Positions 5,253 through 11,538 of a stretch of 64,000 nucleotides of DNA are shown piece by piece (the stretch's first letter is position 1; each line of letters begins with the position of its first letter). The notes under the pieces were generated by a model, which searched no databases, was not told the origin of the DNA, and saw only the letters and a program-made list of their open reading frames with translations. Origin of the DNA: an uncultured delta proteobacterium (lineage in GTDB: Bacteria > Desulfobacterota > Syntrophia > Syntrophales > UBA8958). Location: contig CAISJV010000032.1 in assembly GCA_903885795.1 (NCBI GenBank), positions 1-64,000 of the forward strand, written 5' to 3'. Made by a program: the position numbers and the translations under genes.

Positions 5253-6938
5253 GTGACGGCCGCTCTATTTAATAAAAATGAAGTGGGAAAAATCGGGAAA
5301 GCAGGTTCGACGTGGAGAGACGAAGTTTATTCCTGCCATAAGGAGATCAAGGAGAAATATGAGACCTTATCAGGTTTTGAAGTGAAGCCTCTTTATACAC
5401 CAAAAGATCTTGACAGCTTGGATTACCTTCGTGATCTCGGTTTTCCGGGAGAGGAGCCGTATGTACGAGGGGTCCATCCGACAATGTACAGAGGCCGTAC
5501 CTGGACACACCGGCAATTGGCCGGCTTCGGGCCTCCGGAAGAAACGAACAAACGGTATAAGTTCCTCCTCCACCAGGGTGCAACAGGGATAAACGGTGTC
5601 TTCGATTACCCGACCTTGCGGGGCTACGACAGCGATGACCCAGATGTTTATGCTGATGTAGGGCGTGGAGGCGTCTCAATAGATTCTATTGAAGATATGC
5701 GCATCCTCTTCGAGGGAATTCCCATTGATGAAGTCAGTGTTTCTCTCGTAACATGTCAGCCCATCTGCAACATATCGGTTCAGTCCATGTATTTTGCCAA
5801 TGCCCAGAACAGAGGAGTGCCGCTGAATAAACTGGCGGGAACAAGCCAGAATGATTTTCTGATGGAAACCGCTATCACTATCGCGCCCGGTGTTACACCG
5901 CCGAAGGTCTCCTTCAGGTTGAGTTGCGACGCCATTGAATTCTGCACAAAATACGCACCGCGATGGAATCCCATCAGCTACTCGGGATACAACTACCGCG
6001 AGGCAGGATGCACGGCCCCACAGGAAGTAGCATTTATGATTGCCAACGCCGTTGCCTGCTCGGAGGAGTTGATCAGGCGGGGGTACGATATTGACGTCTT
6101 TGCGCCGAGACTGAGCTTTTTCCTTTCCGCTCATAACGACTTCTTTGAGGAAATAGCAAAGTATCGTGCGGCGCGGCGGATCTACTGCAAAATCATGAAG
6201 GAGCGCTTCGCCCCGAAAGATCCCCGCTCACTGATGTTCAGGTTTCACGTCCAGACAGCGGGAGTAGCACTGACAGCCCAGCAGCCCCTGAACAACATCG
6301 CCCGCGCCTCGTATCATGCCCTCGCGGCAGTTCTGGGCGGCGCGCAGTCCGTCCATGTCGACGCTTATGATGAAGCACTGTGCGTGCCGACAGAACTGTC
6401 CTCTCTCACGGCCTTGAGGACACAGCAGATCCTGCAGTCTGAGACCGGCGTGACCAACGTGGTTGATCCCTTAGGAGGCTCCTATTTTCTGGAATCCCTG
6501 ACCAATCAAATGGAAGAAAACATCGGTAGCATCCTGGCTGAAATTGATTCGATGGGAGGCATCGTCAAAACCGTGGAGAAAGGGTGGATTCATGATGAAA
6601 TATCGGCGGCCGCATATCAATATCAAATGAGGGTCGAGTCAGGAGAAATGCCCATTGTCGGCGTAAACTGTTTTCAGATCGAGAATGAAAAGCTTCCAAT
6701 CGAACTTTTTCGCCTGCCGGAGACGCTTAAAATACAGAAAGCGAAACTCGAAAGAATCAAAAAAAAGAGGAATCCAGTGCAAGTGCAGAAGGCGTTAGAT
6801 GCGGTTACCCGCGGATGTGAAGAGGGACGAAACCTCATGGAACTGCTCGTGGAGGGAGTAAGGGTTCATTTGACGGAAGGAGAGGTGTCACAAGCGTTGA
6901 GAAAAGTTTACGGGGTTTGGAATCCTCCCCTATTTTAA
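5253..6938 (+). CDS. B12-dependent acyl-CoA mutase, large (substrate-binding) subunit, atypical active site
   Basis: A 561-residue TIM-barrel subunit of the methylmalonyl-CoA mutase superfamily, with the length and split form of isobutyryl-CoA (IcmA) and 2-hydroxyisobutyryl-CoA (HcmA) mutases. Conserved landmarks include YRGRTWTHRQLAGFG, TLRGYDSDDPD, FAPRLSFF and VDPLGGSYFLE. The substrate-setting residues differ from the known enzymes I could recall and align: Leu89 where MCM has Tyr89, ICM Phe80 and HCM Ile90; Val116 where HCM has Asp117; a Thr/Ile stretch (about 208-210) where MCM has Arg207 and ICM/HCM Gln; and Asn247 where MCM has the catalytic His244 (SGYN instead of SGYH). GTG start with AAGGAGG 5-10 bases upstream. 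The small subunit follows after 30 bases. The substrate is unknown and probably uncharged and bulky. Confidence 0.9.
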   Translation: MTAALFNKNEVGKIGKAGSTWRDEVYSCHKEIKEKYETLSGFEVKPLYTPKDLDSLDYLRDLGFPGEEPYVRGVHPTMYRGRTWTHRQLAGFGPPEETNKRYKFLLHQGATGINGVFDYPTLRGYDSDDPDVYADVGRGGVSIDSIEDMRILFEGIPIDEVSVSLVTCQPICNISVQSMYFANAQNRGVPLNKLAGTSQNDFLMETAITIAPGVTPPKVSFRLSCDAIEFCTKYAPRWNPISYSGYNYREAGCTAPQEVAFMIANAVACSEELIRRGYDIDVFAPRLSFFLSAHNDFFEEIAKYRAARRIYCKIMKERFAPKDPRSLMFRFHVQTAGVALTAQQPLNNIARASYHALAAVLGGAQSVHVDAYDEALCVPTELSSLTALRTQQILQSETGVTNVVDPLGGSYFLESLTNQMEENIGSILAEIDSMGGIVKTVEKGWIHDEISAAAYQYQMRVESGEMPIVGVNCFQIENEKLPIELFRLPETLKIQKAKLERIKKKRNPVQVQKALDAVTRGCEEGRNLMELLVEGVRVHLTEGEVSQALRKVYGVWNPPLF

Positions 6939-6968
6939 AGTGACTAAAACTTGAAAGGCGAGTAAATA

Positions 6969-7367
6969 ATGCAAAGAAAAATTCGCATACTCATGGCCCG
7001 TCTGGGGATGGATGCCCACTGGCGGGGAAGCATCATCGTCGCACGCGCTCTTCGCGATGCAGGGATAGAAGTTATTTATGTCGGTAACCAGATGCCGTCG
7101 AACATTGTAAAGATGGCAATGCAGGAAGATGTCGATTTCATCGGTCTGAGTTCTCTATCCGGGAACCACCTCATTCTCGCTCCCAAGGTCATCAAACTGC
7201 TGCAAAAGGAGAATTCCGGCGACATAAAGGTAATCTTCGGCGGAACCGTGGCTCCCAAAGACATTCCAGTGCTGAAAAAGGCAGGCATCGCCGAAGTTTT
7301 TGGTCCCGGGACCCCCCTGAAAAAGATCGTCGAATATATATCCGCGGCAGCGACGGATCTAAAATAG
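6969..7367 (+). CDS. B12-dependent acyl-CoA mutase, small cobalamin-binding subunit
   Basis: A 132-residue Rossmann-like B12-binding domain that completes the mutase encoded just upstream (compare HcmB/IcmB, about 136 residues). The cobalamin-ligand motif DxHxxG appears as MDAHWRGS (residues 14-21), followed by GLSSLSGNH and IFGGTVAP, which line the nucleotide tail. Two bases of the usual motif differ: Arg stands where MCM has Lys604 (ARLG for AKMG), and Trp follows the ligand His where Asp is common. The ligand His and its Asp partner are kept, so base-off/His-on cobalamin binding is expected. No MeaB/ArgK chaperone gene is visible nearby. Confidence 0.9.
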   Translation: MQRKIRILMARLGMDAHWRGSIIVARALRDAGIEVIYVGNQMPSNIVKMAMQEDVDFIGLSSLSGNHLILAPKVIKLLQKENSGDIKVIFGGTVAPKDIPVLKKAGIAEVFGPGTPLKKIVEYISAAATDLK

Positions 7368-7559: not shown

Positions 7560-7690
7560 CCACCTAGGACGTCATATTTTCGACTTGGGATTAACGGGGT
7601 CGCCACCCGGTTGAATCGGGTTATCTTCCCCGGATGCCAGAGAGCCGCCAACATACGCGGGGAAAGGTGGACAAAGTTGTCCTTTTAAGT
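7560..7690 (+). promoter_or_regulatory. Structured leader RNA, candidate cobalamin-type riboswitch with terminator-like hairpin
   Basis: The 320-base gap after the mutase holds a dense set of complementary segments. ACCCG 7605-7609 pairs with CGGGT 7617-7621. TTCCCCG 7626-7632 pairs with CGGGGAA 7658-7664, or its CCCCG alternatively with CGGGG 7595-7599. CCACC 7603-7607 can pair with GGTGG 7666-7670. GGACA 7669-7673 pairs with TGTCC 7678-7682 and is followed by TTTT, like an intrinsic terminator that would compete with the GGTGG pairing. The loop at 7632-7651 (GATGCCAGAGAGCCGCCA) resembles the B12 box of cobalamin riboswitches, though with several mismatches. It precedes an HD phosphohydrolase and NrdD homologue. 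The upstream 7368-7559 part shows nothing else. The class assignment is tentative. Confidence 0.4.
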
Positions 7691-7725
7691 TGATATTTTT
7701 ACTCGAATATTATAAAAGTCAGCTC

Positions 7726-9144
7726 ATGATTGCCTACGAGACTACATATCCCCGTATCTACAAGGGCATGGCGCTGATTGCCGATCCGATCCACCAGTAT
7801 GCCTGTTTTACTGTACCGGACGGGAGCGACTCGACGGAAAAAACGGAGAAGGATCTTATCGATTCACCCTGGCTGCAGCGGTTGCGACGGATATACCAGT
7901 TGCAGAGCGCCCGCTGGGTCTATCCGGCGGCAGAGCATACCCGGTTTCAGCATTCCTTGGGGACCATGCATGTCGCGGGGGAATTTGCCCGGTCACTTTA
8001 TCCGAGTCTCCGTGAAATATGTGGAGATGTGCCCTCGGCAAGGTATGTTGAAGAGCTTTTACGCGTTGCCGGGTTGCTCCATGATGTTGGCCATGGTCCT
8101 TACGGGCATTTTTTCGACGATCATTTCCTTGATCAATACGGAATCACCCACGAGGACTTGGGGAGGCAGATCATTGTCAGCAAACTTGGAAGAATCATAA
8201 GGAAGATCAACAGAAGTCCCTCCGGACCGTTTGCGGAGGGCGAGTTACTGGACCCCCTCCAGGTAGCCTATCTCATCAAAATGCCAGGAGACAATAATGA
8301 ACCGGTGCCCCCGTGGCTCCCCTTTCTGCGGCAGCTTTTTTCGGGGATCTATACGGTGGACAATCTCGACTATGTCCAGCGGGATGCTTTCATGACAAGC
8401 ATTTCTCTCGATATGGTGGACATTGCCAGAATACGGTATTACTCCTTTTTTACCAATGCCGGCCTGACCCTTCATGAAGCGGGAATCTCCGCCCTGCGCC
8501 GCTTTCTGAACGCCCGGCTGACTCTATACGCCAATGTCTATTTCCATCGAACCACCCGAGCCCTGGATCTGCATCTACAGGAGATCTTTCGTGATACGAT
8601 GAATATCCTCTTTCCCCGTAATCCCCTGGAGGATCTGGATGCATATGGCCAATTGGATGAATGGAGGCTGTTCGAAGCGGTTCGGCATTGGACGAATGAC
8701 GAAGATCCTGTCAGGAAAAAACTTGGCAAGGAATGGCAGCGACTATACAGTAGGCAGGTGAAATGGAAGATGTCCTTTTCAACGGAGATATCCCTCGAAA
8801 GCGTTCAGAAGGGCACCCGCTTTTCCGAGGCCGGGGATTATGAAAGGCAGATCAGAAACTGTCTGCCAAGATCCCTCAGGAATTTGGCCATCCGAGTTGA
8901 TCTGGCGACACAGGACCCACGGCCGATCAATCCCATGTCGCAGACGGACAAACAGGTCAATATCTTCAACCCCGCTGTGGGTCGTACCTCCCAGGAACCC
9001 CTGCGGGACATCTACCGGTTTATTCCGGCCCGGATAGTTCATTTCCGTGTCTTTACCATGACCCACGACCATGATGCCGAAGTTACTATGGCGGCGGAAA
9101 GTGTCCTGGATAACCCACGGACGACGTCGAGAACAAATATTTAA
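7726..9144 (+). CDS. HD-domain phosphohydrolase (dNTPase/SAMHD1-like)
   Basis: About 472 residues. The HD metal-site motifs are clear: HTRFQHSLG (first His), LLHDVGHGPYGH (HD pair) and the later TVDNLDYVQRD. This pattern belongs to the dGTPase/SAMHD1-type branch that removes triphosphate from (deoxy)nucleotides, and the whole N-terminal half fits it. Start choice is uncertain: a TTG at 7690 touches the leader hairpin, while ATG at 7726 and at 7768 are in frame; 7726 is used. The next gene is an NrdD homologue, so both could act on the deoxynucleotide pool. The substrate is not known. Confidence 0.75.
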   Translation: MIAYETTYPRIYKGMALIADPIHQYACFTVPDGSDSTEKTEKDLIDSPWLQRLRRIYQLQSARWVYPAAEHTRFQHSLGTMHVAGEFARSLYPSLREICGDVPSARYVEELLRVAGLLHDVGHGPYGHFFDDHFLDQYGITHEDLGRQIIVSKLGRIIRKINRSPSGPFAEGELLDPLQVAYLIKMPGDNNEPVPPWLPFLRQLFSGIYTVDNLDYVQRDAFMTSISLDMVDIARIRYYSFFTNAGLTLHEAGISALRRFLNARLTLYANVYFHRTTRALDLHLQEIFRDTMNILFPRNPLEDLDAYGQLDEWRLFEAVRHWTNDEDPVRKKLGKEWQRLYSRQVKWKMSFSTEISLESVQKGTRFSEAGDYERQIRNCLPRSLRNLAIRVDLATQDPRPINPMSQTDKQVNIFNPAVGRTSQEPLRDIYRFIPARIVHFRVFTMTHDHDAEVTMAAESVLDNPRTTSRTNI

Positions 9145-9292: not shown

Positions 9293-11347
9293 ATGTTCCC
9301 ACCGGAAACAACCGATATGACACTGTTTGTCCGGACCTCCGGAGAGGAGGTGGATCAGTGGAACCGACAGCGGATAGTGGATACCTTGATCCGCGAAACG
9401 GGAATTGACCTCGAAACAGCGACGGCCATCAGTAAAGATGTGGAAAAAGGCTTGTTTGCTTCCGGGGTTTCTGTTCTGACAACGTCTCTGGTCCGAGAAC
9501 TAGTAGATGCAAAGCTTGTGGAGCGGGGATTGGAGAAGGCCAGGCGTATGCATTCCCGCCTCGGTTTTTCCCTGTATGATGTCGATCGCCTTATTCTGCA
9601 TCAGAATAAGGAAGACGCCAACGTCCCCCATGGCCCCGAAGGAACAAATCTTGTTCTGGCGCAGGGGATCAAGCGGGAGTATGCCCTCCACAGCATCTTT
9701 CCCCAGGAAATAAGCGACGCCCATATCCTCGGTGATTTCCATATCCATGGCCTGGGATATATCGATCGGCCGTTCGCCATCTGTCAATCCCTGGAGTATC
9801 TGAAAAAATACGGTCTGAATCTTCCTCGTTCCCTTACTGTTGCCAAGCCGGCTAAACATGCGGAGGTTCTACTGGCCCATATGGTTCGTTTCGGCGCCAT
9901 TCTACAGGGATATTTTGCCGGGATCATCAGCTGGAATTTCGTGAACCTGTCTTTTGCCCCTTATCTGGAGGGCATGTCAGACCGGGAAGTCCGGCAATTG
10001 GCCCAGATGCTCATCTATGAGTTTTCTCAATTAACGGCGGCCCGGGGAGGGCAGGCCATGTTTACAGACATCCATGTCTTCTGGGAGGTTCCCGAGTATC
10101 TTCGGGGTCTTCCCATGATCGGTCCGGCAGGGGAAATTACAGGGCGTACCTGCGGAGAATATGAAGGTGAATCGCAACGATTCGCCTGGGCCCTCTTCGA
10201 TGTCTTCAAAAAGGGAGATGGCACGGGCAAACCTTTTATCTTTCCCAGACCCCTCGTTCATCTTACCCCTAGATTTTTTGAAACTTCCGGTCACGAAGAT
10301 TTCCTTCTCCATGTCTGTGAGGCCGCTGCCGACAAGGGCAATCCCTGCTTCGTTCTGGAGAGAAGGAGTGAAGAGGATACTCTCTGTGCTTTCGGTATTC
10401 CCAGTGATCTTGATGAAATGGAAATACCATGGCAGCAGGGGCGCTATGCCGCACTCCAGAGCATCAGTATGAATCTGCCCCGTCTGGGATACCGTGCCGA
10501 AGGGGATGAAGGGCGGTTGTTTAATGGCCTCAAGGACATCATGGCCCTGGCTGCAAGGGCCCATGAGCAGAAAAGGGTCTTTCTGGAGAGGTTGCTTTCC
10601 CATGGAGACCAGGGGCCTCTGTCCGTGCTGGCGATGAATCTGGATGGATTGCCATATTTGCGCATGGATCGCGCCTCTTACCTGCTGGGAATGGTGGGGT
10701 TGAATGAGTTGGTACAGATCCACACGGGAAAGCCCATGCACGAGTCTCCAGCATCCTTTGATTTTGGGTTTAAGGTCATAGACTTTATGGAGAAACAGGC
10801 AGCGGAACTCAGCACCCGGCATGGCATCAGGATGATTCTGGACCAGCCGCACGCAGAAACAACATCTCACCGCTTTGCCCGTCTCGATCTCCGCTATTTT
10901 TCTCCCCAGGCGGGCCGCCATGTCCGGGGAAATATGACCAATGGATGTCTTTATTATACAAACTCAACTCATATCCCTGTTTCTGCGCCATTAAAACCAC
11001 AGGAACTGGTCAGTATGGAGGGTCGCTTTCATCCCCTGATTAAGACTGGGGCTGCCAGTCAGTTGTGGATAGGGGAATACCAGCCTCCTGCTAGTGATTT
11101 GGCAGAATTCATCATCTGGGCCTACGGGGAAACCACCTGCCGTCAGCTAATTTTTTCCCCCGATTTTACCACCTGCCTGGATTGCGGTAAGACCACCCGC
11201 GGACTCACGGAGCTATGTGGTCACTGTTCATCGGTAAATGTGGATGGTATTGCCAAAATCACCCAGTATTACAGTCGGGTGTCGGATTGGAACAAAGGAA
11301 AGATTGCCGAACTGCAGGATCGTTTCCGCCAAGAACACTTCACCTAA
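9293..11347 (+). CDS. nrdD: Anaerobic ribonucleoside-triphosphate reductase (NrdD) homologue lacking the glycyl-radical Gly
   Basis: A 684-residue class III ribonucleotide reductase homologue. It has an N-terminal ATP-cone (about 5-95: RTSGEEVDQWNRQRI), the catalytic barrel (DFHIHGLGYIDRPF, SINLPR-like SMNLPRLGYRA) and a C-terminal zinc site (CLDCG…CGHC). Cys365 (TLCAFG) lies where the finger-loop cysteine is expected. In the family the zinc site is followed by RxTGYx6WN with the glycyl-radical Gly; here this reads KITQYYSRVSDWNKGK, so Gln658 replaces it (codon CAG). The frame is intact through the usual end. No NrdG activase gene is adjacent. It could be a paralogue with another role, a regulator, or inactive as a reductase. 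Confidence 0.85.
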   Translation: MFPPETTDMTLFVRTSGEEVDQWNRQRIVDTLIRETGIDLETATAISKDVEKGLFASGVSVLTTSLVRELVDAKLVERGLEKARRMHSRLGFSLYDVDRLILHQNKEDANVPHGPEGTNLVLAQGIKREYALHSIFPQEISDAHILGDFHIHGLGYIDRPFAICQSLEYLKKYGLNLPRSLTVAKPAKHAEVLLAHMVRFGAILQGYFAGIISWNFVNLSFAPYLEGMSDREVRQLAQMLIYEFSQLTAARGGQAMFTDIHVFWEVPEYLRGLPMIGPAGEITGRTCGEYEGESQRFAWALFDVFKKGDGTGKPFIFPRPLVHLTPRFFETSGHEDFLLHVCEAAADKGNPCFVLERRSEEDTLCAFGIPSDLDEMEIPWQQGRYAALQSISMNLPRLGYRAEGDEGRLFNGLKDIMALAARAHEQKRVFLERLLSHGDQGPLSVLAMNLDGLPYLRMDRASYLLGMVGLNELVQIHTGKPMHESPASFDFGFKVIDFMEKQAAELSTRHGIRMILDQPHAETTSHRFARLDLRYFSPQAGRHVRGNMTNGCLYYTNSTHIPVSAPLKPQELVSMEGRFHPLIKTGAASQLWIGEYQPPASDLAEFIIWAYGETTCRQLIFSPDFTTCLDCGKTTRGLTELCGHCSSVNVDGIAKITQYYSRVSDWNKGKIAELQDRFRQEHFT

Positions 11348-11472
11348 TTCGGATTCTAAATCAAAGCGCTATCTTCGTTGGCATCGTCATCGGCTCCTCG
11401 ACATATGTAAGATACGCCTGCGTCGCCTCTTCCTCGTCGCTTTGATATCCCCATTTGATTTAGAATCCGAAT
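11347..11472. repeat. 126-bp element with 19-bp perfect terminal inverted repeats (MITE- or REP-like)
   Basis: ATTCGGATTCTAAATCAAA at 11347-11365 is repeated as its exact complement at 11454-11472. A second, inner pairing is possible between ATCAAAGCG (11360-11368) and CGCTTTGAT (11438-11446). It starts on the stop codon of nrdD. No coding potential is seen inside. A 21-of-23 match to positions 11360-11382 occurs in inverse orientation at 15621-15643, so the sequence is dispersed. It may also act as a bidirectional transcription stop. Confidence 0.65.
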
Positions 11473-11538
11473 AAGAGTCTCCCCTTTTTTACCTCGGGTC
11501 AAACCCTGACTGCCCTCCGTTTTATTCTTCTCCTGACC

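Follow-up and report, generated by a model that had tools for sequence, protein, structure and literature searches.

The open reading frame at 9293-11347 (forward strand) of the window, by which we mean the whole 64,000-nucleotide stretch analyzed here, encodes a homolog of the class III ribonucleotide reductase (RNR) NrdD that is almost certainly not a radical enzyme. Class III RNRs are oxygen-sensitive enzymes that make DNA building blocks. As judged from sequence comparisons, this homolog has lost its catalytic residues, has no activase, and has stayed under purifying selection, and its gene is paired with an upstream HD-domain gene whose active-site residues are intact. On balance, we favor reading the protein as a pseudoenzyme with a class III RNR as its ancestor, and we propose it as a nucleotide-sensing partner of the adjacent HD-domain dNTPase.

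An NrdD Homolog without Radical Residues

The frame is intact, begins with ATG, and encodes 684 amino acids. It matched the Pfam NRDD profile over 560 of 562 positions (373 bits) and narrowly passed the NCBI NrdD cut-off (328.9 versus 326.35 bits). The protein was aligned to E. coli NrdD and about 150 relatives. The column of E. coli Gly681, the glycyl-radical position, holds Gln658 in the query (codon CAG, 11264-11266, forward strand), as an earlier note on this DNA had proposed; the alignment with E. coli NrdD placed no other glycine at this site. A sequencing error at the CAG codon was excluded because independent genomes carry the same residue: all seven other genomes of the same genus read KITQYY, and independent assemblies across the order Syntrophales share the trait. 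Loci 89-94% identical to the query belong to Syntrophus or Deltaproteobacteria MAGs.

Further catalytic features are changed on the same strand. Ala162 (9776-9778) replaces the active-site cysteine equivalent to E. coli Cys175, and the alignments show a remodeled finger-loop segment (10361-10447) from which the SxCCR motif with the thiyl cysteine is deleted. The radical glycine, the thiyl cysteine, and the Cys175-equivalent expected of an active NrdD are all missing from the query. In the alignment of relatives, Gly153 (9749-9751) takes the place of the aspartate of the HxHD triphosphate-binding motif. The zinc site (11174-11227, forward strand) is intact; its ligands Cys628, Cys631, Cys642, and Cys645 were invariant across 45 aligned sequences including the query.

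AlphaFold2 predicts an NrdD fold for the query (pLDDT 85.4), and the top structural matches of the model were the NrdD proteins of P. copri, S. thermophilus, and T. maritima. These matches and the four zinc cysteines identify both the NrdD barrel fold and the zinc domain. The low-confidence parts of the model are the N-terminal 18 residues, the flap, and the remodeled finger loop (about residues 361-380).

Residues 9-100 (9317-9592, forward strand) form an N-terminal ATP-cone-like domain, recognized through a weak Pfam match and through its preferential conservation. The query scored 17.7 bits against a Pfam ATP-cone cut-off of 25.8, and most relatives tested scored 18.7-30.7 bits; one canonical relative (L211) passed the cut-off with 30.7 bits. 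The usual KRDG hairpin is replaced in the cone of the query, which, together with the score below the cut-off, makes nucleotide binding by the cone uncertain. The earlier description of frame, zinc site, and ATP-cone as intact is therefore correct for the first two, while the cone is only weakly matched.

An inverted repeat at 11344-11475, with 22-nt arms that are 95% complementary and an 88-nt center, begins at the stop codon of the gene. It may be a terminator or a small mobile element of palindromic structure.

Loss of Catalytic Residues across the Syntrophales

Matches to the query were found in 147 of 155 Syntrophales genomes, mostly through the query's own subfamily; the class-level search covered the same 155 genomes as the order-level search. 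Many Syntrophales genomes additionally contain a second, canonical NrdD of the SRVVGYLRPV type. At the radical position, the 107 aligned Syntrophales sequences have Gln (43), Lys (27), Gly (26), Arg (8), or, in one sequence each, Pro, Leu, and Asn. The subfamily was present in 133 of 395 genomes sampled from the phylum, a few Syntrophales among them. Outside the order, 44 of 46 loci of the subfamily have the glycine and the canonical motif, and the remaining two, L201 and L217 from one family, have Asn. Both of these loci read Tyr-Gly where the cysteine pair stands elsewhere, another loss; L201 has Ser for Cys175, and the L217 sequence is truncated at that site. In both genomes (G276 and G248, respectively), the HD gene lies on another contig.

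The Cys175-equivalent was retained in none of the 81 non-Gly members, where Ser, Ala, Gly, Asn, or Ile replaces it. The thiyl cysteine, which is the second cysteine of SxCCR in the canonical sister clade, was retained in 13 of the 81; the other 68 have Gly or Phe in its place, a deletion, or some other change. Consequently, no non-Gly member has the full set of residues. Alanine at either cysteine of the SCCR motif abolishes the activity of T. maritima NrdD, the enzyme from which the role of the HxHD aspartate is also known (PMC4493059). This aspartate is present in all canonical relatives and is Gly, Ala, or Ser in nearly all non-Gly members.

Among the 26 Syntrophales members that retain the radical glycine, seven (L124-L128, L130, and L131) keep all three radical residues; these form a single lineage, and the HD gene is adjacent in none of them. 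In their family (f16, L124-L131), the radical glycine and Cys175 are kept, the cysteine pair is kept in 7 of 8 sequences, CCN replaces CCR, and neither an activase gene nor the HD gene is adjacent.

In a FastTree phylogeny of 159 sequences, the canonical sequences with both cysteine sites, the glycine, and an activase (C/CC/G) form one tight clade, and the Syntrophales members branch off around that clade, having lost these features to varying degrees. Support is weak at several deep nodes; the order of the losses is therefore something we infer.

Activase and Other Ribonucleotide Reductases

A gene for the NrdG2 activase (TIGR02495) adjoins 41 of the 44 canonical loci and all 8 loci of the SRVVGYLRPV type. 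It was found beside none of the 69 Syntrophales loci of the subfamily, whose flanks were mostly 1.5 kb or more, some being ended by contig ends. The earlier observation that no activase gene is near was confirmed in the examined flanks of the query and extends to the genome, in which no gene reached the NrdG or NrdG2 cut-off; the best NrdG2-like match scored 54 bits, under half of the cut-off of 131. NrdG2 was above the cut-off in 9 of the 11 genomes of the query's family. The two without it, the query genome and G007, are likewise the only two without a canonical NrdD.

The query assembly contains no NrdD-family match besides the protein at 9293-11347. The genome encodes a single intact large chain of a class I/II-type RNR; judged by its sequence features, this is most likely a B12-dependent NrdJ.

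Purifying Selection and Shift of Constraint

Between the query and its close relatives, dN/dS was 0.08-0.12 for the whole protein and 0.03-0.11 for the cone, and by this estimate of about 0.1 the protein is under purifying selection. Of the 288 sites invariant in canonical sequences, 153 are kept at 90% or more among the non-Gly members, and the losses are concentrated in the finger loop, around Cys175, and at the radical site. The ratio of cone identity to that of the whole protein, computed on a less redundant set with gaps left out, was 0.89 for canonical and 1.20 for non-Gly members; the corresponding ratio for the finger loop dropped from 1.15 to 0.63. Constraint, as these ratios measure it, has shifted from chemistry to the cone. 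Decay in a single genome is ruled out by the dN/dS values and the conservation across the order, and the earlier view that this is not simple decay stands.

Pairing with an HD-Domain dNTPase-like Gene

The earlier note had missed both the spread of the trait across the order and the gene directly upstream (7690-9144, forward strand; the true start is probably near 7768), which encodes an HD-domain dNTPase-like protein of the SAMHD1/EF1143 type. Further upstream of the pair, 5253-7367 encodes a methylmalonyl-CoA mutase large subunit and a separate B12-binding subunit.

The HD protein contains the Pfam domains HD and HD_assoc_2. Its sequence matches in the PDB are bacterial HD phosphohydrolases, the E. 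faecalis HD protein, and SAMHD1; its predicted structure (pLDDT 83.6) matches SAMHD1 and also the structure of the E. faecalis HD protein determined in the presence of dGTP and dATP. H88, H131, D132, and D232 are invariant in 109 homologs, so that the H..HD..D metal and active site occurs together with a SAMHD1-type fold. The enzyme probably degrades DNA building blocks (dNTPs). By our reading of its sequence, residues resembling the allosteric site of SAMHD1 itself are kept, and the HD protein may therefore need no partner.

Of the 119 Syntrophales genomes in which both genes were listed, 107 have the HD gene immediately before the NrdD gene in the same orientation, and the other 12 have the two genes unlinked. 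The gap has a median of 20 nt and is 25 nt or less in 62 genomes. Counted over the Syntrophales genomes, 120 have both genes, 12 only the NrdD gene, 9 only the HD gene, and 14 neither, which gives an odds ratio of 15.6, uncorrected for phylogeny. The 12 genomes in which NrdD was found and no HD gene was detected include near-complete genomes of family f13, and about 15% of all genomes searched lack the NrdD gene. At locus L232 (G002), the HD gene is followed by gmhA and grpE, and the pseudo-NrdD is cleanly missing between them; the HD gene can therefore exist without it.

The order gmhA-grpE-dnaK downstream is also conserved in many families, and part of the linkage is therefore inherited synteny. 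In family f12, the HD-NrdD pair is kept in 9 of 9 sampled loci, 8 of which have lost the gmhA-grpE-dnaK context. HD homologs occur elsewhere in the phylum, and none was found beside a canonical NrdD of the query's subfamily. Long frames at L141 and L150 looked like in-frame fusions of the two proteins; the genes occupy different frames there, hence these are not fusions, and no HD-NrdD fusion was found. A role in anti-phage defense was considered and rejected: in a PADLOC scan, the HD protein matched a dGTPase only weakly and NrdD matched nothing.

Discussion

The loss of radical chemistry is strongly supported. The earlier note had offered a non-radical paralog as one possibility, and this now has good support, given that the radical glycine, the Cys175-equivalent, the thiyl cysteine, the HxHD aspartate, and the activase are all gone. 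What the protein does instead is a matter of graded confidence. We infer a partnership with the dNTPase from gene order, co-occurrence, and conservation, and we give about even chances to the proposition that the protein regulates that enzyme. The wider proposition, that throughout a bacterial order an RNR has become the allosteric subunit of a SAMHD1-like dNTPase that degrades the RNR's own products, we hold a little more tentatively.

A plausible course of events would start in an ancestor of the Syntrophales, where a canonical NrdD with an ATP-cone became detached from its NrdG2 activase and then paired with the upstream gene for an HD-domain dNTPase. With selection for radical chemistry lost, the thiyl cysteine, the second cysteine, the HxHD aspartate, and finally the radical glycine would have drifted. 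The parts retained would have been the ATP-cone in particular, along with the zinc domain and the barrel fold. In NrdD proteins with a cone, ATP or dATP switches the conformation and the oligomeric state (PMC11226230; PMC12662201). The pseudo-NrdD may have kept this switch and discarded the chemistry: it would read ATP/dATP or other nucleotides through the cone, and perhaps through the old substrate and effector pockets, and would pass the nucleotide state by direct contact to the neighboring dNTPase, on which the switch would now act, raising or lowering dNTP breakdown. The allosteric nucleotide sensor named in the earlier note fits the preferential conservation of the cone, from which the sensing itself would be a deduction.

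Known systems resemble parts of this arrangement. Canonical NrdD with a cone, SxCCR, and NrdG2 in the Desulfobacterota sister clade (compare the NrdDh subclass with T. maritima NrdD) has about 57% sequence identity to the query and has the fold, zinc site, cone, and HxH motif in common with it; the query differs in lacking the radical glycine, the thiyl cysteine, the second cysteine, the HxHD aspartate, and the activase gene, and in the pairing of its gene with a dNTPase-like gene. The inactive homologs of the RNR large subunit in betaherpesviruses (HCMV UL45) are likewise an RNR catalytic subunit turned non-enzymatic (PMC5469499); however, UL45 is of the class I type, viral, and active in host signaling, with no link to a dNTPase. 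E. faecalis EF1143 (3irh, 4lrl), a SAMHD1-like dNTPase, is an HD dNTPase under nucleotide control. In Clover, the dGTPase CloA is controlled by a nucleotide signal from the neighboring gene, CloB (PMC12265719), but the partner there is a nucleotidyltransferase, whereas the partner proposed here is derived from an RNR. A literature search of open-licence papers found no description of a pseudo-NrdD.

The partnership does not account for every genome: nine hold the HD gene without NrdD, twelve the reverse, and in twelve the genes are unlinked. Genomes with NrdD but no linked HD gene would be expected if the protein bound nucleotides independently of the HD enzyme, as a gene regulator like NrdR or as a storage protein, and the retained ATP-cone and zinc site would suit such a role. 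We consider this unlikely, though the strongest of the alternatives, as no DNA-binding domain was found and the tight pairing with the HD gene in 107 genomes would go unexplained.

A regulator of the active RNR in the same cell, whether the canonical NrdD or the NrdJ-like enzyme, is less probable again. Most genomes examined do contain another RNR, NrdD is a dimer and so heterodimers are conceivable, and allosteric features could be common to both proteins, so that mixed dimers or effector titration can be imagined. However, the genes pair with the HD gene and not with another RNR, the two NrdD types within one genome are only about 27% identical, and in the query genome and G007, which have no other NrdD, the target would have to switch to another class of RNR.

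Slow decay of a relic after class III ribonucleotide reduction was lost would agree with the stepwise loss of catalytic residues and the absence of the gene from a minority of genomes. It is disfavored, and we think it very improbable, given the low dN/dS, the canonical-invariant sites still kept, a cone relatively more conserved than before, and frames that are full-length in most families.

Least credible is another radical site, an idea of the earlier note, for instance an alpha-carbon radical on Gln, Lys, or Arg: Ala, Ser, and Thr radicals are stable in homologs of glycyl radical enzymes (Fu et al. 2024, PMC11528403) and the loop around the site (TxYFS, WNKGK) is still conserved in the query's subfamily, but these aminoacyl radical enzymes, which like the query belong to the glycyl-radical-enzyme family and have a changed radical residue, form their radicals with the catalytic cysteine and adjacent activase retained (PMC11528403), whereas the query has no thiyl cysteine and its genome no recognizable NrdG or NrdG2, losses that argue against such a site, and within one order the position has drifted between Q, K, R, L, N, and even P.

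The class III RNRs examined by Fu et al. 2024 carried only the canonical radical glycine (PMC11528403). Here, an entire order has members without it. The query passes NCBI's NrdD cut-off despite its missing radical residues, and because members of the Syntrophales lack the radical glycine, it can be misleading to take an NrdD annotation as proof that dNTPs are made anaerobically. The graded losses of residues across families provide a natural series for studying the passage from enzyme to regulator. Our comparisons suggest that a copy of NrdD in the Syntrophales has turned from a producer of dNTPs into a sensor of nucleotide levels; if the partnership with the HD enzyme is true, the allosteric machinery of dNTP synthesis would have been reused to control dNTP breakdown.
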